Shown here: one piece after another, positions 27,025 to 42,944 of the stretch
Position numbering within the stretch: the stretch's first letter is position 1
Layout: every line of letters begins with the position of its first letter
Source: Candidatus Saccharimonadota bacterium
Lineage (GTDB): Bacteria > Patescibacteriota > Saccharimonadia > Saccharimonadales > UBA4665
Assembly: GCA_029288365.1 (NCBI GenBank)
Contig: JARIHI010000004.1
Coordinates: forward strand, 62,001 to 126,000
DNA: 64,000 nucleotides
Direction of reading: 5' to 3'
Program-made: the position numbers and the translations under genes
The notes under the pieces: generated by a model
What the model saw: the letters and a program-made list of their open reading frames with translations, nothing else
What the model was told of the DNA's origin: nothing
The model's database searches: none

Positions 27025-29625
27025 CTAGCGACGCTTACGTGCCTTTGTTTTGCGCTGACGTTCGGCTTTACGGGTTTTCTTTTTATTTACTGGTTTTTTT
27101 GCCGTACCTTGTATGGATGTCTTCGACTTGAAGTCATCTTCTGAAATTTCTTCGGCTTCGGTAACTTGATTGGCATTAGCCACAGATTGGCGAGCTGCTC
27201 GAGTTAAATCAGTTTCTATCGGTTTGTCAAGCTGCTCTTCAGTTATTGGCTCGGCATGGAAAAGCACTCGCAAAACTTCATGACGTAAATTAGCCTGCAT
27301 TTCATCAAACAAAAGTTGTCCTTGACGCCGATATTCAACCAGCGGATCACGCTGCCCCACGCTCATCCAGTGAATACCTTCACGCAAATGCTCCATGTTT
27401 TCCAGGTGCTGCATCCAGAGATTGTCGAGTACCTGCAAATAAATATCACGTTCAATTTTGCGCATAATTTCTGCAGTAAAGGCAGCTTCGCGAGCGGCAT
27501 ACAGCTCTTTGGCTTCAGTGACAAGCACATTTTGCACCTTATCAGCATCTGAATCAAACAACCGATCTAGCGTAGGGTCGTCAAACGGAAAGACACTTTT
27601 TATCACATCTTCAAATTGATCAGTGGTGGCTAGCGAAGAACCAAGCATAGCTTTGGCTTCTTCCTCGATAAATATATGTATGCGTTTTGCCACATCGGTC
27701 TTATGCAAAATATCGCGGCGAATAGCATAAGTTGCTTTGCGGTGACGGTTCATAACGTCATCGTACTTCACAACATTTTTACGCTGGTCAAAATGGAAAC
27801 CTTCAACCTTCTTTTGTGCGCCTTCAAGGCTACGCGAAATCATACGGTTTTCAATCGGCATATCTTCCGCCACCTTGAGCCTGCCCATTAGGCCAGCAAT
27901 GCGTTCGCCACCAAAGATACGCATAAGATCGTCTTCGGTACTCACAAAGAACTGGGTAGTACCAGGATCGCCCTGGCGTCCGGCACGACCACGAAGTTGG
28001 TTGTCGATACGACGAGATTCATGACGTTCACTACCAAGTACAAATAAACCACCGAGCTCTTTAACTCCTTCACCCAATACGATATCTGTACCACGACCAG
28101 CAATATTAGTAGCCAAAGTAACCCCGCCCTTTTCACCTGCTCTAGCGACAATGTTGGCTTCACGTTCATTATTCTTAGCATTTAACACTTGGTGCGGTAC
28201 GCCTTCTTTATCAAGCAAGTTTCCAAGTAATTCGTTCTTCTCAATGGAAACTGTACCAATCAACACCGGTTGGCCTTTGGTGTGGAGCATTTTTACTTCT
28301 TTGGCTATAGCTTTGAATTTACCAGCTTCAGTTTTATAGATACGGTCACTACGATCTTCGCGCGCGATTTGGCGATTTGGCGGAATCTCTACAACATCAA
28401 GTTTATAAATCTGATGAAATTCTTCGGCTTCGGTCATAGCCGTACCGGTCATACCAGCCAATTTTTCATACAAGCGGAAGTAATTTTGAAATGAAATAGT
28501 CGCCAGCGTCATAGACTCTTGCTGTACCTCTACGCCTTCTTTGGCTTCAATTGCCTGGTGTAAGCCCTCGTTATAACGACGCCCTGGCAATAAACGACCC
28601 GTAAATTCATCGACAATGACAATTTCGCCATCTTTAGTAACGACGTAATCTTTATCTTTTTTAAATAACGCTTGGGCACGCAGAGCTTGTTCAAGGTGGT
28701 AAATAGTGCGAATATTTTGAGTAGCGTACAGGCTTTCAAGCCCAAGAACTTTTTGCGTTTTTTCTACGCCTTCATCTGTTAGAATAACCGTTTTGCGTTT
28801 TTCATCTACTTCATAATCATCCTCGCGCTTGAGCTGACGCACAACTTTGGAAAATTGTGCATAGGCGCTGCCACTCGTTACACTTGGAGCCGAAATAATG
28901 AGTGGTGTTCGAGCTTCGTCAACTAAGATCGAGTCAACTTCATCAACAATGGCATAATGCAGCGGGCGCTGGCGTAACTGATCAACTTCACGCACCATAT
29001 TGTCACGCAAATAATCAAAGCCAAACTCGTTGTTAGTGCCGTACGTTACGTCGGCTGCATAAGCTTCTTGTCGAGTAGCTGGGCGCAAATGACGGAATCG
29101 CTCATCTTCGTGATCTTTATTGGTATATTTTAGATCATACACATATGACTCGTCAGCTATAATTACGCTGACACTAAGTCCCAAAAAGCTATAGACCTGC
29201 CCCATCCATCCAGCATCACGTTGCGCCAAGTAGTCGTTCACTGTTACAACGTGCACACCTTTGCCTGTTAAAGCATTTAAATAAACTGGTGCGGTGGCTA
29301 CCAGGGTTTTACCTTCACCAGTTTTCATTTCGGCTACGTTGCCTTCGTGCAGTACCATGCCACCAATAAGCTGCACGTCGAAGTGACGCATGCCAAGCAC
29401 TCTGTCAGCTGCTTCACGAACTACTGCGAAAGTGTCTGGCAAAATCGCATCTAACGATTCTTTTTTTAGTCGTTTCTTCAGCGTTTCAGTCTGTTTTTTA
29501 AGCTGGCTGTCAGACATTTTTTTATACTTGTCTTCAAGCGCGTTAATAGCCTTTACTCGCTTGCGCAAACGTTTGACAGTCTTTGCCTGCGGATCACCAA
29601 GAATTTTCTTAAAAACAATATGCAC
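27025..29625 (-). CDS. secA: Preprotein translocase ATPase SecA
   Basis: Drives export through SecYEG. Walker A GEGKT at 103-107, DEVDSILVDEARTPLIISAP, the preprotein cross-linking domain, and the helicase motif AGRGTDIVLG are all present, along with the scaffold and wing domains. The C-terminal tail is Lys/Arg-rich and lacks the zinc-binding Cys cluster that binds SecB in proteobacteria, as expected in a lineage without SecB. The start is GTG with GGGAG 8 nt upstream. Confidence 0.97.
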   Translation of the reverse strand: MHIVFKKILGDPQAKTVKRLRKRVKAINALEDKYKKMSDSQLKKQTETLKKRLKKESLDAILPDTFAVVREAADRVLGMRHFDVQLIGGMVLHEGNVAEMKTGEGKTLVATAPVYLNALTGKGVHVVTVNDYLAQRDAGWMGQVYSFLGLSVSVIIADESYVYDLKYTNKDHEDERFRHLRPATRQEAYAADVTYGTNNEFGFDYLRDNMVREVDQLRQRPLHYAIVDEVDSILVDEARTPLIISAPSVTSGSAYAQFSKVVRQLKREDDYEVDEKRKTVILTDEGVEKTQKVLGLESLYATQNIRTIYHLEQALRAQALFKKDKDYVVTKDGEIVIVDEFTGRLLPGRRYNEGLHQAIEAKEGVEVQQESMTLATISFQNYFRLYEKLAGMTGTAMTEAEEFHQIYKLDVVEIPPNRQIAREDRSDRIYKTEAGKFKAIAKEVKMLHTKGQPVLIGTVSIEKNELLGNLLDKEGVPHQVLNAKNNEREANIVARAGEKGGVTLATNIAGRGTDIVLGEGVKELGGLFVLGSERHESRRIDNQLRGRAGRQGDPGTTQFFVSTEDDLMRIFGGERIAGLMGRLKVAEDMPIENRMISRSLEGAQKKVEGFHFDQRKNVVKYDDVMNRHRKATYAIRRDILHKTDVAKRIHIFIEEEAKAMLGSSLATTDQFEDVIKSVFPFDDPTLDRLFDSDADKVQNVLVTEAKELYAAREAAFTAEIMRKIERDIYLQVLDNLWMQHLENMEHLREGIHWMSVGQRDPLVEYRRQGQLLFDEMQANLRHEVLRVLFHAEPITEEQLDKPIETDLTRAARQSVANANQVTEAEEISEDDFKSKTSIQGTAKKPVNKKKTRKAERQRKTKARKRR

Positions 29626-29815: not shown

Positions 29816-30172
29816 CTAATATCTGATTCGTCGCATCAATCGGCGATGTATTTTACCACTATTCGTGTGGGTGTCTTTATATTTTTTGAGTTGTTGCCTT
29901 AGTTTAGTTTCGACAATATCAACTGCCGCGAACATATTGACTGTCGCTTCACTCGCATCCAAGGTTCCGTGAGGCAAATGTAATACTACACCGCACGTAA
30001 ACTGTTCTTTATTTTTGGATTTACTTCCCTTTAATTTTACTTCGGCATGGATACTTTCGCGGGCATGACGTGAGGCATAGCGATCAAGTTTACCGATTTT
30101 TTTTGTAATGTATTTTTTTAAATCTGGCGTAAGTTCAGTATGCTGAGCATTAATTTCAAGCTTCTTAATCAT
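29816..30172 (-). CDS. hpf: Ribosome hibernation promoting factor, short form
   Basis: A 118-residue S30AE/HPF protein that binds the decoding site of idle ribosomes. Visible are MIKKLEINAQHTELTPDLKKYITKKIGKLDRY and the basic C-terminal end. The dimerisation domain of long HPF is absent, so either 100S dimers are not formed or another factor is needed. It lies 3 bp after serS. The 190-bp gap to secA is AT-rich, with a TTGAAT-16-TATTTT promoter candidate for secA. Confidence 0.9.
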   Translation of the reverse strand: MIKKLEINAQHTELTPDLKKYITKKIGKLDRYASRHARESIHAEVKLKGSKSKNKEQFTCGVVLHLPHGTLDASEATVNMFAAVDIVETKLRQQLKKYKDTHTNSGKIHRRLMRRIRY

Positions 30173-30175
30173 TGA

Positions 30176-31474
30176 CTATATCCTCTCCTTTCCACCCATA
30201 TATGGCCTTAGTACCTCTGGTATTACGACATCGCCTTCGGTAGTCTGGTAGTTTTCGATAACTGCTATCGGCCCACGACTGAGCGGTAACGCTGTCGCGT
30301 CATTAGTGTGGATCAGCTCAATAGATCCGTCCTCGCGGCGCACTCGAGTTTTCAGACGACGCGCTTGATAATCTGTCATAAAATCAGCGGTATGGGTTTC
30401 GCGGTATGTATGCTGCCCTGGCAGCCACGCTTCAATATCAATACCACGCGCATTTGGTTTACCAATATCCGCAGTACACTTCGTGAGCACTTGATACGGT
30501 ATACCGAGGAGTTGCATAATTTTTTCTTGGATTGCAATCATGAACAAATGCTCGTCGAAACCCGCCTCTGCCACGCTCAAACTTTCCATTTCAAGCTTGT
30601 CGAACTGGTGCATACGGAACATGCCTTCCATATCTTTGCCATATGTACCAGCTTCTCGGCGAAAACTCGTTGCATAACCAATATATCGCAGCGGTAAATC
30701 CTGTTCGGCAAAAACTTCATCAGCATGCATGCTACCGAGTACATGCTCTGCACTACCCTGTAACCACAAGTTCTCATCCTCAATTTTATAACGATCATCG
30801 CGAGGCTCAAGTCGATCCATGGCGTCATATAGTTCAGTGCGAATCATATACGGTGGTAGTATGGGCAGAAATGGTTTATTGCTAATGGTAAGGCTATTTT
30901 CGTGAATGATCTCATCAATAAATTCTTGGCTACTGAGTTTATCCATGATAAATTGTATGATCGCAAACTGTAGCCTAACTAAATCACCTTTCAAATAAGC
31001 AAATCGCGAACCGCTTACTTTAGCTGCCCGCTCTTTATCAAGCCAACCTTTCGCTTCGGCAATTTGTGCATGTGTTTTTGCCTCAAAGTCAAACGTAGTT
31101 GGTTCGCCAACTTTTTTGCTCACCACATTTTCGTCTTCGGTCTCGCCAACCGGAACGTCGTCTAATGGTATATTCGGTATTTGCTTTAGTAGCACTAACC
31201 ACTCAGCTTCAGTTTCTTTTAATAACGTTTCGTGTTCGGCTAGCTCCACTTTTATTTGTTTGCCCTCATCAATCAGTGATTGCTCCGGTTTACCATTCTT
31301 CATTTTGGCAGCGTTTTCATTACGTTTTTGACGCAAATCTTCTGCATGCGCGAGTAGCTCGCGGCGATTTTTATCGACTCCTAACAGTTTTGCAACGTCT
31401 ACGTCATAGCCCTTTTGTTTTGCTTTTTCCTGAACGACTTCCGGATTATCACGTATAAACTGAATATCTAACAT
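30176..31474 (-). CDS. serS: Seryl-tRNA synthetase
   Basis: The N-terminal coiled-coil arm that holds the long variable arm of tRNA(Ser) spans about residues 25-105. The catalytic class II core includes motif 2 (FRREAGTYGKDMEGMFRMHQFDKLE), TADIGKPNARGIDIEAWLPGQ, and motif 3 (IAVIENYQ). Length 432 is standard. A TATAAT at 31482-31487 ends exactly 7 nt before the ATG, within the 14-bp gap after the nuclease gene. Confidence 0.97.
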   Translation of the reverse strand: MLDIQFIRDNPEVVQEKAKQKGYDVDVAKLLGVDKNRRELLAHAEDLRQKRNENAAKMKNGKPEQSLIDEGKQIKVELAEHETLLKETEAEWLVLLKQIPNIPLDDVPVGETEDENVVSKKVGEPTTFDFEAKTHAQIAEAKGWLDKERAAKVSGSRFAYLKGDLVRLQFAIIQFIMDKLSSQEFIDEIIHENSLTISNKPFLPILPPYMIRTELYDAMDRLEPRDDRYKIEDENLWLQGSAEHVLGSMHADEVFAEQDLPLRYIGYATSFRREAGTYGKDMEGMFRMHQFDKLEMESLSVAEAGFDEHLFMIAIQEKIMQLLGIPYQVLTKCTADIGKPNARGIDIEAWLPGQHTYRETHTADFMTDYQARRLKTRVRREDGSIELIHTNDATALPLSRGPIAVIENYQTTEGDVVIPEVLRPYMGGKERI

Positions 31475-31488: not shown

Positions 31489-32274
31489 CTATTTCTTCTT
31501 ATTTTGCAGGTGTTTTAAGGTAAGTTCGGTACGGTCACGGGCATAGGTACAGAATTGACAGGGTCCACCCATGATATTGTCACCGACTGGTGGTACAGAT
31601 TCACTTTCCATGTGCTTTTTCATTTTTTTAATAGTTGGCTCAATCCATGCATCAGTGCCAGTATAAGGAATTACTTTTGTATAGAATTCCAGCTTGTCGT
31701 TAAACCCGTCTGAGTCAAAGCGGCCATTTGTGTAGACAAAATAGCCGGTATCACTAACCTTGAAACCATTTTGCCGCAGCAGCCACTGGTACACCTCCAT
31801 TTGTCGTTTATAGCTGACTTGCCAACCAGAATCTATGTTGACCTCTCTGGCTTTAGCGGTAGCTTTGTAGTCAACAACTATCAGTTCATCATTGTCGCTG
31901 ACCCACACATCGTCTACTGCACCAAAAATGTGTAAATTAGTGGGCTGATGCAAATAACCTACGCCTGTAAAGTTGTGGCGCCATGTATCTAAATCATCAT
32001 GGGCGTACGGAATAGCTTTAATCTGATTATCAAGCATCATGGGGTGAGGTTTTGCTTTGGCACGATAACTGTCGAATTCTTTTTTCAGCAACTCGTCGAT
32101 AGCCTTGTTGATATTAAATGGCGGACTGTCAGGTCGTTTAATTTTCAGTCGTACATCAAGCCAAAAACAACGCGGACATTGCATAAATAGCTCGATTTTC
32201 GAACGTGAAATTTTATAGGCGGCTTCCTGCCCTGGCTTATACGGCAGATTCCGTTCCCTCCAATAGTTACTCAT
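31489..32274 (-). CDS. PD-(D/E)XK nuclease with probable four-Cys iron-sulfur site
   Basis: 261 residues of the RecB/Cas4-like nuclease superfamily. The catalytic core shows GAVDDVWV, then LIVVDYKATAK (the D...DYK signature) and a Gln-containing helix YKRQMEVYQWLL. A CPRC pair at about 33-36 and a CQFC pair near the C-terminus match the layout of iron-sulfur Cas4/AddB-type nucleases. No cas genes are nearby, so this is likely a repair nuclease. A TATAAT ends 7 nt before the ATG. Confidence 0.85.
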   Translation of the reverse strand: MSNYWRERNLPYKPGQEAAYKISRSKIELFMQCPRCFWLDVRLKIKRPDSPPFNINKAIDELLKKEFDSYRAKAKPHPMMLDNQIKAIPYAHDDLDTWRHNFTGVGYLHQPTNLHIFGAVDDVWVSDNDELIVVDYKATAKAREVNIDSGWQVSYKRQMEVYQWLLRQNGFKVSDTGYFVYTNGRFDSDGFNDKLEFYTKVIPYTGTDAWIEPTIKKMKKHMESESVPPVGDNIMGGPCQFCTYARDRTELTLKHLQNKKK

Positions 32275-32291: not shown

Positions 32292-33542
32292 TTATTTTCT
32301 ATGTAATACAGCCAGGGTTTCAATGTGGGGTGTACGCGGAAAGAAATTAAAAATTTCAAAATGCTTAATGGTGTATTTTTCTTGCAACTTAATAAGATCC
32401 CTGGCTTGGGTGGCTGGATTGCAGCTAAGATAAACGACCTTGTGCGGCAATACTTCCAGCACTCTGTCGACCACCTTGGCATGTAAACCAGCCCGCGGTG
32501 GATCAAAAACAATTGTTGTTTCGCTCGTTATGTATTCTAGAACCTTTTCAGTTGAAGCCTCAATCACCTTAACGTCCAAGCCACTGCCACGGGCATTCTC
32601 GTTTGCCATCTTCGCCGAAGTCGGATCTAGTTCAATAAGATCGACGCTTTTTTCTGCCACACTCAATCCAATACTCCCTGTACCTGCATACATATCGGTT
32701 ATTGCGACGTCTGCACCGTGTATTCTGATACTCGAAAGTGCCTTTTCAAATACTGGAATATTCACCTGGAAGAATGAGTCAACATCGTATACAAATTTTT
32801 TATCCAAGAGTATATCTTGCAGTAACACTTCACCAAGTTCGTATAAAAGTTTTGTGGGCACTGATGCTGGGCTTTTTGGGTTTGAATGATATACGCGTAG
32901 ACCTTTTAACGCTTTTGGCAATCTAATTCGTGGGAATTTCTCTGGTTTTACAAACAAGCTTGCCACGGCTTCGCCATTTTGGTTACAACGAACAATGATT
33001 GCCTTTAAATCACCTGCACGGATTTGTAAGTTTTGCAGCTCAGAAAGTACTGCGTTTGCCGCAGCATCAATTGCTGGTAAAGCCAATTTGCTGCCAGTTA
33101 CAATTTGCTTGCCATGCGTACCACGGCGGTGTAGCGCCAAGTGCAATCCATTATCGTCACCCCAAAACGAATATTCCATTTTGTTCCGGTATTGCCATTG
33201 TCTACCGTCATGTACCACATTATTATATTCGGCGATGTTAATTTTCTCGTGCGCAAAAAGCTCGGTCACAATCTCTTTTTTATACTTATTTTCAGCTTCA
33301 AATGTCATTATTTGCCAGGGGCTGGTAGCTAGGTAATTTTCTTCTTGTGGCTCTATGCGTTCACTTGACGATACAATAATTTCTTCTGCAATTGCCTCTA
33401 TGTAACTGTGCTTCTTTTTGATAATCCTTAGCTTTACCGTTTCACTTGGCAACGCATTCCATACAAACACTTTTTGGCCACTTGCAAGTGTTCCCAAGCC
33501 TTGTCCGCCATGAACAAGTTTTTCTATTTTTACTTCTTCCAT
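32292..33542 (-). CDS. RlmD/TrmA-family RNA m5U methyltransferase without Fe-S cysteines
   Basis: Residues 1-60 form a TRAM-like domain. The methyltransferase part has MYAGTGSIGLSVAE (motif I), FDPPRAGLHAK, and the nucleophile Cys in VYLSCNPATQARDL. It methylates uridine C5 in rRNA or tRNA. The iron-sulfur motif expected before the central domain (CxxxxxCGGC) is absent: the region reads RIEPQEENYLATSPWQIM. Length 416. Whether it targets 23S rRNA or tRNA cannot be told. A TATAAT at 33553-33558 lies 10 nt upstream of the ATG. Confidence 0.88.
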   Translation of the reverse strand: MEEVKIEKLVHGGQGLGTLASGQKVFVWNALPSETVKLRIIKKKHSYIEAIAEEIIVSSSERIEPQEENYLATSPWQIMTFEAENKYKKEIVTELFAHEKINIAEYNNVVHDGRQWQYRNKMEYSFWGDDNGLHLALHRRGTHGKQIVTGSKLALPAIDAAANAVLSELQNLQIRAGDLKAIIVRCNQNGEAVASLFVKPEKFPRIRLPKALKGLRVYHSNPKSPASVPTKLLYELGEVLLQDILLDKKFVYDVDSFFQVNIPVFEKALSSIRIHGADVAITDMYAGTGSIGLSVAEKSVDLIELDPTSAKMANENARGSGLDVKVIEASTEKVLEYITSETTIVFDPPRAGLHAKVVDRVLEVLPHKVVYLSCNPATQARDLIKLQEKYTIKHFEIFNFFPRTPHIETLAVLHRK

Positions 33543-33563: not shown

Positions 33564-33669
33564 TTTCAACATAAAGCATCCTCTTAATGCGCCTCGGAAG
33601 TGCTTTTTATGTTACCAAAAACATAAAAAGTGACCCGAACGCGCATTAAGAGGATGCTTTATGTTGAAA
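33564..33669. repeat. Large perfect inverted repeat (29-bp arms) with inner hairpin
   Basis: The left arm 33564-33592 and right arm 33641-33669 are perfect reverse complements. Inside lies a second stem: CTTTTTATGTT (33603-33613) pairs with AACATAAAAAG (33620-33630) around a 6-nt loop. The whole could fold into one long cruciform or RNA hairpin. The right arm contains the last codons and TAA stop of the HAD gene. There is no run of T on the minus-strand side, so it is not a typical intrinsic terminator. No target-site duplication is visible. It may be a MITE-like element or a processed RNA structure. Confidence 0.9.
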
Positions 33670-34288
33670 ATTCAGGGAAAATCTTTAGTAAATCGCTGGG
33701 CTTTTCAGCAAGCGCGTAAGGCTCTAGGTCTTGAAGTAGCGTCGTATGATTATATCCCCACCCTACTGCCACAATCGGCAATTTGGCTTTTTTTGAGGCT
33801 GTAATATCGCGCGCCTCATCGCCAACGTAATAGGTTTGGGCGAGGTCAAGTTTTTCAGACGTAACAATCCGTCGCAGTACCCGGGCTTTGCCAAAAAGCC
33901 CAGCGTTACCAACAATATCTGTAAAGTAGCTGTTAAGTGCGTGCTTGTCCAAAAAAAACTCTACGTTCTTTGCGCTATTCGATGTAACGATACGCATAGT
34001 ATAACCCCGCTCTTGTAAAGTTCGTAAAACATCGGGTAGTCCTTCGAATACTGCTACTTCGTCTAAGCGGCTATGCATAATTTTACGGCCTTTACGTACC
34101 AAAAATGGCAAGCGCCACACGGATACGCCAAGCGTTTTCATAACTCTTTGAGCTGGTAATTTACGTAATGCTTCGCGCTCAGATACTGTAAGTTTGCGGT
34201 TATCACCAGTAAGTTGTCGGTAAATTTCAATCACTAGCTCCAAACTATCGGCTATAGTACCGTCAAAATCAAAAATGATTGTCTTCAT
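33659..34288 (-). CDS. HAD-family phosphatase (phosphoglycolate phosphatase-like)
   Basis: Haloacid dehalogenase hydrolase of 209 residues. Motif I is FDFDGTIADS with both catalytic Asp residues, motif II is the Thr/Ser in VTSNSAK, the Lys in GKARVLRRIV follows, and motif IV is YVGDEARDITASKKA. The helical cap resembles Gph or PpaX phosphatases; the substrate is uncertain. The stop codon lies in the right arm of the inverted repeat. A TATACT box at 34297-34302 ends 8 nt before the ATG. Confidence 0.9.
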   Translation of the reverse strand: MKTIIFDFDGTIADSLELVIEIYRQLTGDNRKLTVSEREALRKLPAQRVMKTLGVSVWRLPFLVRKGRKIMHSRLDEVAVFEGLPDVLRTLQERGYTMRIVTSNSAKNVEFFLDKHALNSYFTDIVGNAGLFGKARVLRRIVTSEKLDLAQTYYVGDEARDITASKKAKLPIVAVGWGYNHTTLLQDLEPYALAEKPSDLLKIFPEFST

Positions 34289-34310: not shown

Positions 34311-35420
34311 CTAGTTTGTTGTACTGTCATAGCTAGTGTCGGGGTAAAGTCTATATGGATCGGGGATTAAGCTGGTAGCTTTAATGGTAAAGCATTGTTG
34401 GCCGTTATTTTCTGCCTCAAAGTCGTAAGTAGAAATGTATGTATCGTCAATATCATAGTTTCCTCTATCATATCCCGAATCTATACCTTTATTGAAATCG
34501 GCACAGAGCTGGTACTTAGTGTTTGTTTGTTTTGCATATGATACGCCTACGGTATTAGCGTCTACGTCCTGTAGTGTTGCTGGTAATGATTTGCTTGATT
34601 TTGCCTCTTCGCGAATTGCTTTGACTATACTAACCAACTGCTTGCGAGTCTGATCATCTGCACGCAGTGGGCCTACTCGTACTAATGCCAAAATGCCAAA
34701 AATCGAAATGAGGACAAGAAGCAATATCGGAAACAATGGCAGTACTTTCTTGCGCCAAGCATATGTTGGCTTAACGAAGTTAGCTATAACGTATGCGCTA
34801 ACTACTAGTGCATTCATGGTTGCAATAGCTGCGCTCGATACCAATAGTGCGGTTGTGTCGTCTCCCCCGTCAACCAATACTAAAACGAGCACGAACGTAG
34901 CTAGGGCACCGATCAAGCCAAGGCTATGGAGCACAATAGTAATAATTGACCAAACTTTGCCAGTTTTTAAATCGCTTTGCTTACGAAACTTTTTTAGGTA
35001 GTTAGAAAAAAGGATTGCAAACGGAATAAAAGTAAAAACTTCCAATACTAAATAAGTCAGAAGTGTCTCTGAAGATCCGCTACGAGCGCCGAACAATTCG
35101 TACGACACAACCCCGATCATTATGCTTGTCGTAATCGTAAACACCCAAAGTAACACGTGCTGAAGAGCCGCCTCCAATGCGCTGATCGATTTGTCGTTTA
35201 CTTTTGTGTGAGGATTTACATTAGCGTGAGGTTGTGACTGTGACGGTTCTACACTAGAAGTGTCCTGAGCAGTATGCGGCGCCGAAGGGATTGATAAGTC
35301 CAACACAGCTACTTGAGCTTCAGTTTCGGCCCAACCAGCATTTATAAGCAATTGCTTGATCTGCTCGTCATGCAAGCCTTTACTACGTGCTTCTGCTACA
35401 AACTGCTTTACGTTATTCAT
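34311..35420 (-). CDS. Multipass membrane protein downstream of the opsin homologue, 369 aa
   Basis: The N-terminal segment VAEARSKGLHDEQIKQLLINAGWAETE is a short helical domain common at the front of CPR membrane proteins. A polar linker and about six membrane helices (residues 85-265, similar in feel to DUF5671 proteins) follow, then an outer domain of about 100 residues with two Cys (QLCADF, QQCFTI) that could form a disulfide. The gene begins 12 bp after the opsin homologue and is probably co-transcribed with it. Function unknown; a signalling or partner role to the opsin is a guess. Confidence 0.7.
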   Translation of the reverse strand: MNNVKQFVAEARSKGLHDEQIKQLLINAGWAETEAQVAVLDLSIPSAPHTAQDTSSVEPSQSQPHANVNPHTKVNDKSISALEAALQHVLLWVFTITTSIMIGVVSYELFGARSGSSETLLTYLVLEVFTFIPFAILFSNYLKKFRKQSDLKTGKVWSIITIVLHSLGLIGALATFVLVLVLVDGGDDTTALLVSSAAIATMNALVVSAYVIANFVKPTYAWRKKVLPLFPILLLVLISIFGILALVRVGPLRADDQTRKQLVSIVKAIREEAKSSKSLPATLQDVDANTVGVSYAKQTNTKYQLCADFNKGIDSGYDRGNYDIDDTYISTYDFEAENNGQQCFTIKATSLIPDPYRLYPDTSYDSTTN

Positions 35421-35432
35421 GAAGGCATCTTT

Positions 35433-36341
35433 CTATGGCTGAAGTGCTCCTGCAAAAACTTGCCACGCTAATGCGCTCGCTGCAATAAACATCAATACGT
35501 TATAAGCTCGCTCGCCATACAGGTAGTTTGTCCATTTGCCCTGCCTTTTGTGCTGAAGATACATATTGCGTGCAAATAGCAAAAACAAAATAAACAAGCT
35601 GGCAGCAATACCATACACATAGCCCGGGAGATCGCCGCTACCATAGATATTTGCTCCAAGTAGATATATTGCGACAACAAGCCATGGCAACATACTAGCC
35701 GTCCACGCAAGCACGCACATCAGTCGTCGACGAGTTGCAGCTTGACCATATACTTCAATACCAAGTCCCGACAGATTGGCGATAAGGGTTAACCCAATAA
35801 ACGCAAGTAGCAAGGAAATGTCTTGCACGCCACTGATAAGACCTATTGTCACCAGCATGAGCGCTCCAGCTACACCAAAACCTGCCCACCGTAATCGATT
35901 AACGCCAGCTGCCAACTCTTGCTCGTAGCGCTTGCGGTATACGGTTGTGAAAAGTATATGCGTAACTGCAGCTACAAATAAAAATGCCGCCACAAGATAC
36001 ACAAGGTTTATATCAAAAAGATGTTCTACAGCTGGTGCGAGCATAGGCGGTTCGCCAACTTTACTCGTAAATGTATCTTTGGTAAGAAAACTTGTAGTTA
36101 CCGGCAAGGCGTGCGCCGCACCTATAATAATAATTGCCACACCCTGAACCAGATAAAGAAGAGCCAGCCATTTATTCCATACGTATAGCGAGCTGTTTGT
36201 GATTTTCTTGACGGTCTTTTTTGACGTAACCTTCTCAGTTGCTACTTTTTTAGATTTAGTAGTAGTTTTTTTTGCCTTCGCTGCAACAGTTTTGGCTGGT
36301 TTTTTGGTTTTAGTCGTCTTCTGAACCTTGTTTTTTACCAT
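35433..36341 (-). CDS. Heliorhodopsin homologue lacking the retinal-binding lysine
   Basis: A seven-helix membrane protein of 302 residues with a Lys/Thr/Ala-rich N-terminal tail (about 50 residues). Family marks seen: GYVYGI at the start of helix 6, GKWTNYLYGERAY before helix 7, and SALAWQVFAGAL within it, all closely matching heliorhodopsin. In heliorhodopsin the segment VAKSALAW carries the Schiff-base lysine; here it is IAASALAW, so residue 288 is Ala (codon GCG at 35478-35480). The counterion Glu of helix 3 is Gly154 in RWAGFG. His128 of helix 2 is kept. The protein should not bind retinal covalently. I start at ATG 36339-36341, six nt after TATAGT. Confidence 0.88.
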   Translation of the reverse strand: MVKNKVQKTTKTKKPAKTVAAKAKKTTTKSKKVATEKVTSKKTVKKITNSSLYVWNKWLALLYLVQGVAIIIIGAAHALPVTTSFLTKDTFTSKVGEPPMLAPAVEHLFDINLVYLVAAFLFVAAVTHILFTTVYRKRYEQELAAGVNRLRWAGFGVAGALMLVTIGLISGVQDISLLLAFIGLTLIANLSGLGIEVYGQAATRRRLMCVLAWTASMLPWLVVAIYLLGANIYGSGDLPGYVYGIAASLFILFLLFARNMYLQHKRQGKWTNYLYGERAYNVLMFIAASALAWQVFAGALQP

Positions 36342-36451: not shown

Positions 36452-37003
36452 ATGGCGAACCAAACCGACCAGCTCGAAACAAAATTAAACGAACTATTTG
36501 TAAAAAATGCACCAGAACTGCCAAAGGGAGGAAAACAATTTCTTGTACAGTATATCCCCTACCTTTCACTACTTGGTGGCTTACTAAGCTTATGGGCCGG
36601 ATTTCAAATCTGGGATTGGGCGCATAAAGCCAATAAAGCTATCGATGTACTTAACCAACTAAGCACTACATACGGTGTGGAACCCGTTTCTACAGATCGG
36701 TGGACTGTCGCGCTTTGGTTTTCATTGGTTATCTTAGTGATCACCGGTGCTATCTACATTCTAGCCTACGCACCTTTGAAGGCCCGCAAGAAAGCCGGGT
36801 GGAATCTGCTTTTTTATGGCCTACTCCTTGGCATACTTAATGGCATAGTTGGCATCTTCATCGATAACTACGGCAGCGGATTTGGCGGATTCATCGGCTC
36901 GCTTATCGGCTTTTTGATTGGTGGCTGGCTATTATTCCAAATTCGTGAGTCTTACCTCGGCAAAAAAGCAACCAACACAAAGTCTGTTGGCAAAAAGTCC
37001 TAA
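36452..37003 (+). CDS. Four-helix membrane protein of unknown function, 183 aa
   Basis: An amphipathic N-terminus (LETKLNELFVKNAPELPKG) precedes four membrane helices (about 37-53, 85-106, 120-138, 142-162) and a basic tail (GKKATNTKSVGKK). The last two helices are Gly-rich (GSGFGGFIGSLIGFLIGGW), like helix-packing motifs. It is transcribed away from the opsin homologue across a 110-bp gap. A GGAG lies 10 nt before the ATG. No family recognised. Confidence 0.7.
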   Translation: MANQTDQLETKLNELFVKNAPELPKGGKQFLVQYIPYLSLLGGLLSLWAGFQIWDWAHKANKAIDVLNQLSTTYGVEPVSTDRWTVALWFSLVILVITGAIYILAYAPLKARKKAGWNLLFYGLLLGILNGIVGIFIDNYGSGFGGFIGSLIGFLIGGWLLFQIRESYLGKKATNTKSVGKKS

Positions 37004-37004
37004 T

Positions 37005-37036
37005 AGCTTACTACTCAGATAAGCTTTTAACTTTTA
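37005..37036 (+). terminator. Candidate terminator after the four-helix protein gene
   Basis: AGCTTA (37005-37010) pairs with TAAGCT (37020-37025) around a 9-nt loop, followed by TTTAACTTTT. It overlaps the last bases of the converging lysS gene. Confidence 0.5.
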
Positions 37037-38584
37037 ATATAGCTCTGGATAAATTGTTTTGGTAACTTCATCTATTTCGCTGCGGAGTTGCGGGAATGGT
37101 ACTCCTTCGCGAGCCGTTACACCTTCGAACACCCAAAATAGCCGTTCGCTATAACCCCAGCCACAGGTTGGCGGCATGCCATATTCCAACATTTCTACAT
37201 AATCAATATCGAGCATCATCGCTTCTTTATCGCCAGCATCACGCATGTGTTGCTGCTCCATAAAGCGGCCAAGCTGTTCAAGAGGATCATTCAGCTCGCT
37301 AAAGCCATTGCCAAGTTCCGACCCAGCAATTATCGGCTGGAAACGCTGAACGGTGTCCGGCCTTTCTGTATCTATCTTAGCCAACGGGCTAATAAATAAC
37401 GGAGTATTTACAAGCCACACCGGGCCAGCCACGTCTTTACGGATATGTTTCCATAGTTTATCGATACCGCGGGCTTTGTTTTCGGTCTGCTCTACTTCGA
37501 GGTTGTTTTCTGCCAACGCTTTCTTAACTTCATCAAGCGTACAATCAAGGGGATCAATATTATAGCGATTCTTAATAACCTGCGCATAATCCCACTCTTC
37601 CCATTCTTTACTTACATCAATATCGAAATTACCAAGCTTAAACTGCAAGGTACCAAAAGTATTTTGCAAGACATACCGATACATGTCTGTCATAAATTTC
37701 ATACCCTGCCGCCAGTCAGCATACGCCCAATACCACTCCATAGCTACATGTTCGGGCAAGTGCTCATCCGAGTAATTTTCGTTTCGAAAACGCGGTCCGA
37801 TGTCATACACTTTTTCATACCCACCACCAATAAGGCGCTTCAATGGTAATTCGTGGCTGATCCGTAAGTAAAAATCCTGGTCTAGCGCATCCATATGTGT
37901 CACAAACGGATTTGCATCTGCCCCGCCCGTTGTATGTTCAAGTACCGGGGTGTTAATTTCTACAAATCCATGCTGATTGAGATAATCACGCGTCGCCTGC
38001 CAAAACTTGCTGCGACGGATAAAGCGCTCCCTGACATCTTTATTAACATTCATATCAACATAACGCCTACGTAAACGCTCTTCTTTATTAGTAAAACCAT
38101 CGTGATCCGTAGGTAGCGGGCGCAGGCTTTTGGCTAGCAAACGTAAATTTTGGACTTCAAGGGATATTTCGTTAGTTTGGGTTTTGATAATTTTTCCACT
38201 GGCTTCAATAAAATCACCACTATCAAGCAGCGGTAAATCGGAAAATTTGAGCTCGCTTTTAGCTCTATCCACCTCTTTTTCTACATAATGCTTATTATCG
38301 CCCACTTCGTGCTCTTCGGCACCCATGCTCTGTAGCGATAAGAAAAGCTGTAACTGGCTATTTTGGTCGCGTACAACTACAAAAGCAATTTTGCCGAATT
38401 TTCGAATGTTCACAACCCGGCCCACCACTGTAGCGGTTTGCCCTTGCAGTTCGTCAAATTTATCTGTAATTTCCGTAAGCGTGTGTGTACGCTTCGCTTC
38501 CGCTGGATAAGGATTAATCCCTAGCTTCTGTAACTCGTCCAACTTACGTAAGCGTTCATCACGCAGTTCTTTAAGTGTCGCCAT
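37034..38584 (-). CDS. lysS: Lysyl-tRNA synthetase, class II
   Basis: An N-terminal OB-fold anticodon-binding domain (ATVVGRVVNIRKFGKIAFVVVRD) leads to the class II core: motif 1 around RRSKFWQATRDYLNQHGFVEINTPVL, motif 2 in FRNENYSDEHLPEHVAMEWYWAY, and GCxGxGxDR-type motif 3 is replaced by a GMPPTCGWGYSERLF-like segment. That last variant, with about 516 residues, is typical for lineage-specific LysRS. The start ATG lacks a strong ribosome binding site; TATACT lies about 25 nt upstream. Confidence 0.93.
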   Translation of the reverse strand: MATLKELRDERLRKLDELQKLGINPYPAEAKRTHTLTEITDKFDELQGQTATVVGRVVNIRKFGKIAFVVVRDQNSQLQLFLSLQSMGAEEHEVGDNKHYVEKEVDRAKSELKFSDLPLLDSGDFIEASGKIIKTQTNEISLEVQNLRLLAKSLRPLPTDHDGFTNKEERLRRRYVDMNVNKDVRERFIRRSKFWQATRDYLNQHGFVEINTPVLEHTTGGADANPFVTHMDALDQDFYLRISHELPLKRLIGGGYEKVYDIGPRFRNENYSDEHLPEHVAMEWYWAYADWRQGMKFMTDMYRYVLQNTFGTLQFKLGNFDIDVSKEWEEWDYAQVIKNRYNIDPLDCTLDEVKKALAENNLEVEQTENKARGIDKLWKHIRKDVAGPVWLVNTPLFISPLAKIDTERPDTVQRFQPIIAGSELGNGFSELNDPLEQLGRFMEQQHMRDAGDKEAMMLDIDYVEMLEYGMPPTCGWGYSERLFWVFEGVTAREGVPFPQLRSEIDEVTKTIYPELY

Positions 38585-41163: not shown

Positions 41164-41625
41164 CTAAGAAATATCGGCGATTTTGTAGGTAGTAGTTTCT
41201 GCTGGAGTTTTTATTTCTACCTGCTCACCGAGACCTTTGCCAAGTAATGCTTGTCCTATAGGTGACTCGTCAGATATCTTGCCGTTCAGTGGATCGGCTT
41301 CTACGGTACCCACTACTTGGAACTCCTTGGTTTTGGCGCTACCTTTAAGCTTCACGATGGAGCCAAGCTGGACTTTGCTGTCACCTTTTGGGGCTTTAAT
41401 AACCTCCACGTTAGCGAGGATGTGTTCAAGCTCAGTAATCCGTGTTTCATTTTTCTCTTGCTCTTGACGCGCAAGTTGATATTCGGCGTTTTCACTCAAA
41501 TCACCAAACTCCCGGGCTGTCTTAATCCTATCAGCCACCATACTACGCTCGGTTATAAGTTTATTTAGCTCTTCTTGTAGCTCGGCTATGCCAGATTCTG
41601 TTAGTCGAAATGGTTTGCTTATCAT
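41164..41625 (-). CDS. greA: Transcript cleavage factor GreA
   Basis: Rescues backtracked RNA polymerase. The coiled coil is LQEELNKLITERSMVADRIKTAREFGDLSENAEYQLARQEQ with the acidic tip DLSENAEY, and the C-terminal FKBP-like domain ends in DESPIGQALLGKGLGEQVEI. 153 residues is standard. AGGAG lies 7 nt before the ATG. It converges with the aldolase gene with only 3 bp between stops and no terminator. Confidence 0.96.
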   Translation of the reverse strand: MISKPFRLTESGIAELQEELNKLITERSMVADRIKTAREFGDLSENAEYQLARQEQEKNETRITELEHILANVEVIKAPKGDSKVQLGSIVKLKGSAKTKEFQVVGTVEADPLNGKISDESPIGQALLGKGLGEQVEIKTPAETTTYKIADIS

Positions 41626-41690
41626 AGCTTTCTCCTATTATTCTCTGTTGTAGGTCTATTGGTTTCGGTCTATTGTAACAAGTTATTTGT

Positions 41691-42944
41691 CTAAAGACAT
41701 AATAATTTTTCAATAAAGGCTTGTGGCTCCATCATGACAGTTTCTGTCTCCCTACGTTGTTTGATTTCTAATTGTTTTGCGGCCACAGTTTTGCTACTTA
41801 TGACCACCCTGTAAGGTATACCGTGTAAATCAGCATCCGCAAATTTTTCGCCTGGACGCATATCACGGTCATCATATAATACCGCAATGCCCCCCTGAGT
41901 CAATTGTTCGTATAGTTCATCTGCCGCCTTTACCACTTCTTCTTCGTCTCCGATACGAGCTATATATACTTTGGCAGGAGCCACAGCCATAGGCCACACC
42001 AGGCCTTTGTCGTCAGCAAAACGCTCTACAATTACCCCCATAAGTCGCGTTATGCCTATGCCATAGGAACCAAGTATGACTGGTTTGCGATTGCCATCTT
42101 CGTCTATAAAGTACAGATCAAGTTGCTCGCTCTTGGTGCCTCCAAAACTAAAGATATTACCTACTTCTGCAGCCTTTGCTTTTTCTAATTCGTCACGCTG
42201 TAGACCAAGCTGAGCGATAACTTCATCTGTAAATACTTCTTCGTTGATAGCAAGTTTTTTACCGCGATGGAGATAGATTGTATCTTCCCCAGTATCAGCA
42301 ACTGTCTGGAATTCATGACTAAACTGTGTAAATGCCCCTCCTGAGGCAAAAGTAAGAAACGTATCATTTCCTAACCCTACCCTTTCAAACACCTTCAGAT
42401 AGGCTTCGGTAGCTATATCGTAAAATTTTTGATGAGCTTCCTCGCTCAGACTATACGAGTACATATCTTTCATAACAAACTCACGGCCCCGCATAATGCC
42501 GCTCTTGGCCCGAAGTTCGTTGCGTAATTTAGTTTGGAATTGATACACATAAGCTGGTAGGTCACGATAACTATTCAAATAATTACGCATCATGTTGGTA
42601 ATTTGCTCTTCGTGGGACCAGCCAAATCCTACTTCTGTGCTATTTTTGAGCTTGGACTTAAACCATACGTCTACTTTTTCGTCATCCCATCGATCCGTTT
42701 TTTCCCATAACTCCTTTTGCTGGAGTGAAGTCATGATTAACTCTTGCCCTTCAATGGCATTCATTTCTTCACGAACGATTTGTTTAATATTTTCAAGCAC
42801 CTGAAGCCCAAGTGGCAAATAAGCGTATACGCCAGCCATTTCTTTATATACATAGCCAGCCTGGATAAGCAAACGTGCGTTTTTGGCAGTCTCGTCGGCA
42901 GGTATGGTTTTACTGGTTTTGGTAAAAAGTTGTGATAGTCTCAT
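41691..42944 (-). CDS. proS: Prolyl-tRNA synthetase, bacterial type without editing insertion
   Basis: 417 residues instead of about 570. Motif 1 region AGVYAYLPLGLQVLENI, motif 2 FRNELRAKSGIMRGREFVMKDMYSY-like segment, and motif 3 GSYGIGITRLMG are present, followed by the anticodon-binding domain. The stretch between motif 2 and motif 3 is only about 70-80 residues long, so the INS editing domain that hydrolyses Ala-tRNA(Pro) is missing. GAGGAAAAATC precedes the ATG. The 120-bp upstream gap holds a small CCGG hairpin (42992-43003) and no T-box motif. Confidence 0.94.
   Translation of the reverse strand: MRLSQLFTKTSKTIPADETAKNARLLIQAGYVYKEMAGVYAYLPLGLQVLENIKQIVREEMNAIEGQELIMTSLQQKELWEKTDRWDDEKVDVWFKSKLKNSTEVGFGWSHEEQITNMMRNYLNSYRDLPAYVYQFQTKLRNELRAKSGIMRGREFVMKDMYSYSLSEEAHQKFYDIATEAYLKVFERVGLGNDTFLTFASGGAFTQFSHEFQTVADTGEDTIYLHRGKKLAINEEVFTDEVIAQLGLQRDELEKAKAAEVGNIFSFGGTKSEQLDLYFIDEDGNRKPVILGSYGIGITRLMGVIVERFADDKGLVWPMAVAPAKVYIARIGDEEEVVKAADELYEQLTQGGIAVLYDDRDMRPGEKFADADLHGIPYRVVISSKTVAAKQLEIKQRRETETVMMEPQAFIEKLLCL

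Follow-up and report, generated by a model that had tools for sequence, protein, structure and literature searches.

A heliorhodopsin lacking the Schiff-base lysine and its counterion at a conserved locus of Saccharimonadales

We analyzed a heliorhodopsin (HeR) gene of a Candidatus Saccharimonadota bacterium (order Saccharimonadales, family UBA4665; assembly GCA_029288365.1). The gene lies in a 64,000-nucleotide stretch of contig JARIHI010000004.1 (positions 62,001 to 126,000, forward strand), which we call the window. The encoded protein has lost both the lysine that binds retinal through a Schiff base and the glutamate of helix 3 that acts as its counterion. Orthologues at the same chromosomal locus have lost the lysine many times; in the less diverged of these copies most residues around the Schiff base were replaced, whereas a hydrogen-bond relay was largely kept. 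We favor, with moderate confidence, the interpretation that the window protein is a retinal-free heliorhodopsin maintained as a light-independent seven-helix membrane relay or regulator.

Identity of the protein and loss of the retinal-binding residues

The gene and its relevant parts are the following.

35433..36341, minus strand: heliorhodopsin gene without the Schiff-base lysine, 302 amino acids, seven transmembrane helices (open reading frame, family matches, AlphaFold model)
35478..35480, minus strand: Ala288 (codon GCG), aligned with the Schiff-base lysine K241 of HeR 48C12 (HMMER, MAFFT)
35880..35882, minus strand: Gly154 (codon GGT), aligned with the counterion E107 of HeR 48C12 (HMMER, MAFFT)
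36195..36341, minus strand: residues 1-49, a tail rich in Lys, Thr and Ala that precedes helix 1 and is predicted to be cytoplasmic (sequence, model)

The protein scored 205.7 bits against PF18761 (E 9e-61, cut-off 26.7) and 202.8 bits against the NCBIfam heliorhodopsin equivalog NF038020 (cut-off 100), and solved heliorhodopsins matched it at E 1e-43. No Pfam match to the type-1 rhodopsin family was obtained. An AlphaFold2 model (predicted local distance difference test 91.1, predicted template modeling score 0.83) was generated from an alignment with 59 heliorhodopsin homologues and, given this input, indicates compatibility with the fold rather than independent proof of it. The top Foldseek match of the model was TaHeR, with a template modeling (TM) score of 0.93-0.95 by target length; type-1 structures reached about 0.4-0.6 by query length. 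The model also presents the A-B loop strands (78-88 and 101-112) and the B-C loop helix (136-144) of the heliorhodopsin fold. Family models, alignment and structure prediction therefore agree with an earlier note on this DNA, which had recognized a heliorhodopsin from the helix 6-7 sequence. The NF038020 model accepts several other lysine-less proteins, so that automatic annotation names them heliorhodopsins. Such an annotation does not imply light sensing.

Both HMMER and MAFFT aligned Ala288 on the Schiff-base lysine of 7clj, 6is6 and 6su3, and placed Gly154 in the helix 3 column of the counterion Glu107/Glu108. The two replacements reported by the earlier note were verified at the level of codons and alignments. 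Each codon is at least two base changes away from any lysine or glutamate codon, so a single base error explains neither substitution. We consider the probability that the two codons arose from errors of sequencing or assembly to be negligible, since further cavity sites have changed in a correlated manner and an equal loss is seen at the same locus in many independently assembled genomes. Codon usage in the gene is normal and resembles that of the host genome, and no stop codon interrupts the reading frame.

A lysine located elsewhere in the retinal pocket could in principle have taken over. The protein possesses 18 lysines within residues 1-46, followed by K57, K88, K94, K137, K265 and K269. 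Based on the model secondary structure, K57 lies close to where helix 1 starts, within a cytoplasmic Trp-Asn-Lys motif, and the five others are in loops or at helix ends. Judged from sequence and model secondary structure, no alternative retinal lysine lies inside a transmembrane helix; the earlier note had named a substitute lysine at the retinal pocket as a result that would refute its reading. With Ala288 in place of the helix 7 lysine and Gly154 in place of the helix 3 carboxylate, the sequence implies that a covalent retinal pigment cannot form by the usual bond.

The first 50 residues contain 18 lysines and a single acidic residue, and the modelled helix 1 begins at residue 49. This strongly basic tail fits the predicted inverted topology, in which the N-terminus would face the cytoplasm. 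A lysine-rich tail, predicted to be cytoplasmic, is common to several lysine-bearing and lysine-less members. Locus heliorhodopsins of the order, such as those at L131, L145, L156 and L221, present long tails before helix 1 that are rich in Lys, Thr, Ser and Ala, with a composition similar to that of histone H1 tails.

Recurrent loss of the lysine among orthologues

We examined the 60 syntenic loci used to build a tree of concatenated neighbor proteins. The Schiff-base lysine is missing from 24 of these 60 orthologues, with Ala, Val, Glu, Trp, Leu, Ser, Gln, Arg, Ile or Thr at this position across the loci. Using parsimony, the neighbor-gene tree requires a minimum of 17 changes, or 17-19 when only losses are allowed, even if weak branches are collapsed; the heliorhodopsin gene tree requires a minimum of nine. 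Lysine-less copies fully covered by their contigs have intact open reading frames. Outside the order, all 27 best-scoring heliorhodopsin loci present both the lysine and the glutamate (K/E, giving the lysine position and then the counterion position), in a sample that is biased toward such best-scoring loci. Separately, a single lysine-less clade was rejected by the approximately unbiased (AU) test (p 0.005; p 0.0008 with fewer long branches and cavity columns left out), with long branches as a caveat on this rejection.

The earlier note treated the loss of the lysine and the counterion as a joint event. This is the case for the window protein but is not universal among its relatives: the pair is E/E at locus L129 and K/T at L130, with R/D or K/F in several distant members. 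The two losses are often, not always, coupled. Five loci (L205, L208, L212, L215 and L216) have Arg at the lysine position, with Asp at the counterion position in three of them. Four others (L213, L217, L219 and L220) retain the lysine with Phe or Tyr as the counterion residue, which should disfavor a protonated Schiff base.

Replaced input and conserved relay

The hydrogen-bond system of heliorhodopsins was partitioned into input and relay residues following a published study (PMC9726877; residues in 48C12 numbering), independently of our data. The input residues around the Schiff base are His23, Ser76, His80, Glu107, Tyr108, Ser111 and Ser237; Lys241 was omitted from the count because it defines the lysine-bearing and lysine-less groups. 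The relay comprises Asn16, Tyr92, Arg104, Glu149 and Glu230 on the cytoplasmic side and Gln26 and Trp246 on the extracellular side. All seven relay residues are kept in the window protein, at the following codons.

36174..36176, minus strand: Asn56 (Asn16 of 48C12)
36144..36146, minus strand: Gln66 (Gln26 of 48C12)
35925..35927, minus strand: Tyr139 (Tyr92 of 48C12)
35889..35891, minus strand: Arg151 (Arg104 of 48C12), invariant in the 59-sequence alignment
35754..35756, minus strand: Glu196 (Glu149 of 48C12)
35511..35513, minus strand: Glu277 (Glu230 of 48C12)
35463..35465, minus strand: Trp293 (Trp246 of 48C12)

Of the seven input residues, only His80 is kept, and this loss is significant for the window protein alone (P 0.001). 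Lysine-bearing K/E orthologues keep 99% of the input and relay residues. The ten less diverged lysine-less orthologues, in contrast, keep 25% of the input residues (16/64 alignment cells) and 94% of the relay residues (62/66), against 53% (371/703) for the other columns that are invariant among K/E sequences. The relay value was not attained by any of 20,000 random sets of seven invariant columns, whether the window protein was included or not, and the input loss was likewise significant when compared with random column sets (P 0.002). These ten sequences were picked by their helix 7 sequence, which contains Trp246, and the conservation of that relay site is therefore partly built in. In the more diverged lysine-less copies, 58% of the relay residues are kept versus a background of 31%, mostly Tyr92, Arg104, Glu149 and Glu230.

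Evolutionary rate, selection and points that weigh against the proposed reading

Lysine-less copies evolve faster than their neighbors. The terminal-branch ratio of heliorhodopsin to neighbor genes has a median of 4.1 for lysine-less copies versus 0.9 for K/E copies (Mann-Whitney p 2.5e-5); branch lengths were fitted on the neighbor-gene topology, and conflict with the gene tree inflates these ratios. The ratio of nonsynonymous to synonymous substitution rates (dN/dS) was about 0.10-0.16 and 0.12-0.27 in two same-genus pairs of lysine-less copies, values that are rough because synonymous distances are near saturation. Such values suggest that the lysine-less copies are under purifying selection and are not neutral. 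The earlier note proposed selection for a non-photochemical role, and this proposal finds support in the relatives, through the recurrent loss of the lysine, the conservation of the relay and the low dN/dS of the two pairs.

It is possible, although we consider it unlikely, that these genes are relics in decay: after the loss of retinal or of light, selection would have become weak, the gene would be heading for loss and the remaining conservation would reflect the inertia of folding. The roughly fourfold faster evolution of lysine-less copies relative to their neighbors is what such a decay would produce, as is the absence of the gene from 69 of the 93 genomes of the family, with an empty locus wherever it is readable. 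A relic would not be expected to change so selectively at the input residues while the relay stays above background, in many lineages, with intact reading frames, normal codon usage and dN/dS well below 1.

Several other observations weigh against a maintained relay in the window protein itself. Its relay conservation, taken alone, is not significant (P 0.10), and folding, rather than signaling, may be the reason why relay residues persist. Its terminal-branch ratio is 3.5 versus a median of 0.9 for its K/E kin, and relaxed selection would give a similar value. The earlier description of the rest of the protein as strongly conserved thus holds in part only, given this branch and the environment of the Schiff base, where six of seven residues have changed. 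Both dN/dS pairs belong to the more diverged subgroup, and the window protein has no close relative, so that selection on it is deduced from its kin: its genus is represented by one genome in our data set, and a wider scan of contigs for close relatives yielded a distant match only. The topology, function, input and partner that we propose for it are inferred. Finally, its position in the trees is inconsistent. In the neighbor-gene tree, the window genome falls beside G021 (Gln/Gln) and the two K/E genomes G060 and G023, with 99% support in the Shimodaira-Hasegawa-like approximate likelihood ratio test. The heliorhodopsin tree instead groups the window protein with other diverged copies (support 95/90), and its monophyly with the neighbor-gene kin is borderline rejected (AU p 0.049). 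Long-branch attraction or a replacement at the locus may account for this placement, and because of this borderline rejection we state a range for the number of losses. Either the lysine was lost in place and the tree draws the protein toward other fast-evolving copies, or a lysine-less form of older origin persisted, with G060 and G023 as exceptions. Both histories imply persistence without the lysine.

Genomic context

The window genome (908 kb, 97% complete) carries one heliorhodopsin gene, embedded in a conserved block whose genes, apart from the HAD hydrolase, were named from sequence; the adjacent 369-residue membrane protein is listed with them.

27025..29625, minus strand: secA, conserved block
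29816..30172, minus strand: hpf, ribosome hibernation factor-like gene, conserved block
30176..31474, minus strand: serS, conserved block
31489..32274, minus strand: PD-(D/E)XK nuclease-like protein, conserved block
32292..33542, minus strand: RlmD/TrmA-like RNA methyltransferase, conserved block
33659..34288, minus strand: HAD hydrolase (family match), conserved block
34311..35420, minus strand: 369-residue membrane protein, candidate operon partner of the heliorhodopsin
37034..38584, minus strand: lysS, conserved block, other side of the heliorhodopsin
41164..42944, minus strand: greA and proS, conserved block, other side of the heliorhodopsin

Across the order, the block reads secA-hpf-serS-nuclease-[rlmD]-[HAD]-HeR-[lysS]-greA-proS and flanks lysine-bearing and lysine-less copies alike. 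Heliorhodopsins were found in 24 of the 93 genomes of the family and in 114 of the 393 genomes of the order. We did not see any heliorhodopsin-like reading frame in the gap of the otherwise intact block in family genomes that carry the block and were negative for heliorhodopsin; genome G049 (L194) has a different neighborhood and is uninformative in this respect. The conserved block and the whole-gene absences indicate that the gene is old at this locus and was often lost entirely, and the empty locus in negative relatives suggests that it can be lost outright when it is not needed. From this synteny, the window gene appears to be a copy of the ancestral, locus-anchored heliorhodopsin of its order. 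In genome G053 (L196 and L042), a seven-transmembrane protein at the locus has diverged to below the Pfam cut-off, which indicates that surveys based on Pfam thresholds undercount heliorhodopsins.

The 369-residue membrane protein begins 12 bp downstream of the stop codon of the heliorhodopsin and matched no family above cut-off in Pfam or NCBIfam. It is weakly similar to proteins near the heliorhodopsin at L137 and L208. On the other side, a divergent 183-residue membrane protein (36452-37003) adjoins the gene, as it does in G028; the same kind of protein occurs in several heliorhodopsin-negative genomes and is therefore not tied to heliorhodopsin.

Light and retinal

A search for type-1 rhodopsin (PF01036) found none in the window genome, and the same search gave matches above cut-off in 9 of the 393 genomes of the order. 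The heliorhodopsins that were read in type-1-carrying genomes keep K/E. This pattern fits, and does not prove, an association of lysine loss with the loss of a light-using life. Searching 30 genomes for the retinal-forming enzyme PF15461 returned no match, but the control also gave none and the result carries no weight. The nearest neighbor-gene kin with K/E copies (G023, G060 and G061) each possess two heliorhodopsins, the locus copy and a second one elsewhere that resembles 48C12, plus a type-1 rhodopsin. In G060 the latter presents an Asp-Thr-Ser motif known from Saccharibacteria, and within the candidate phyla radiation heliorhodopsins occur mainly in Saccharimonadia (PMC9166423). Both points suggest a Saccharimonadales-like member of the Patescibacteria, in agreement with the assigned taxonomy.

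Light might still be sensed if the old pocket bound retinal or another polyene without a covalent bond. The fold is kept, as is much of the hydrophobic core, and kin without retinal synthesis are thought to obtain retinal from their hosts (PMC9296517). We nevertheless regard this scenario as very unlikely, considering that the lysine, the counterion and most residues of the Schiff-base cavity are gone together and that a type-1 rhodopsin was not found in the window genome.

Proposed function

Our preferred reading, a light-independent relay or regulator, starts from what the protein has lost and kept. The part that receives the photochemical input, made of Lys, Glu, Ser, His and Tyr near the Schiff base, is erased. 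The cytoplasmic hydrogen-bond gate (Asn56-Tyr139-Glu277-Arg151-Glu196) is kept, together with the Gln66-Trp293 switch on the extracellular side. The state of this relay would most likely be set by an input other than light, for example by protonation or by an anion or small ligand within the emptied cavity. A cytosolic partner would then read that state through the inner loops and perhaps also the lysine-rich tail, which may be part of the output. Structures of heliorhodopsins indicate that the cavity takes up anions once the counterion is neutralised (PMC9385722), which makes a proton or anion input conceivable. A published heliorhodopsin regulates glutamine synthetase through direct binding (PMC9529153).

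The earlier note suggested a scaffold, a ligand binder or a signaling part, and sequence does not discriminate among these roles. A constitutive scaffold, in which the apo-heliorhodopsin would do no more than tether or regulate a cytosolic partner, without any input that switches it, is in our view improbable. The lysine-rich tail shared by lysine-bearing and lysine-less members would suit it. Keeping the buried relay with its Gln-Trp pair on the extracellular side goes beyond the needs of a tether, although this is a weak argument.

More tentatively, the ancestral locus heliorhodopsin may have been primarily light-independent across the order. Its lysine would have been dropped repeatedly and its relay kept, giving rise to a class of retinal-free receptors or regulators, and lysine-bearing members might share this light-independent function, with light merely modulating it. 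We find this broader view possible but doubtful.

What heliorhodopsins do is still an open question. Orthologues with and without the lysine at one locus separate what photochemistry needs from what selection keeps, and they point to the Arg104-Glu230-Glu149-Tyr92-Asn16 network with the Gln26-Trp246 pair as the part that matters for the job. They also offer a direct experimental handle on a shared partner or output.

Comparison with known systems

The literature that we searched contained no report of heliorhodopsins without the lysine; however, a survey of 5,558 rhodopsin genes that included heliorhodopsins, cited in PMC7714340, counted about 600 genes without the lysine, some of which may be heliorhodopsins. 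Another survey of this group checked its candidates for an SxxxK motif (PMC9166423), a check that lysine-less heliorhodopsins would fail.

Lysine-less type-1 opsins are known from haloarchaea, fungi, proteobacteria, a cryptomonad and the freshwater FArhodopsins; expression was demonstrated in some cases, and non-light roles in sensing or regulation have been proposed (PMC4915679, PMC10308929, PMC7714340). The window protein resembles Rh-noK, the haloarchaeal and fungal opsin-related proteins and the FArhodopsins in retaining the opsin fold without the retinal lysine. Unlike these proteins, which have the opposite membrane orientation, it is a heliorhodopsin in a conserved locus. Moreover, some Rh-noKs adjoin a working rhodopsin, whereas the search of the window genome gave no second rhodopsin.

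The window protein shares with HeR 48C12 and TaHeR the family, the fold, the A-B loop strands, the B-C loop helix, the helix 6-7 sequence and the relay network, and a cytoplasmic N-terminus is predicted for it as well. It differs from them in the absence of the Schiff-base lysine and the counterion glutamate and in the replaced cavity residues. The lysine-bearing heliorhodopsins of the same locus (such as L142, L144, L162 and L031) occupy the orthologous place, are 38-51% identical to it and in several cases possess a basic tail; unlike the window protein, they have an intact K/E pair and 99% of the input and relay residues.
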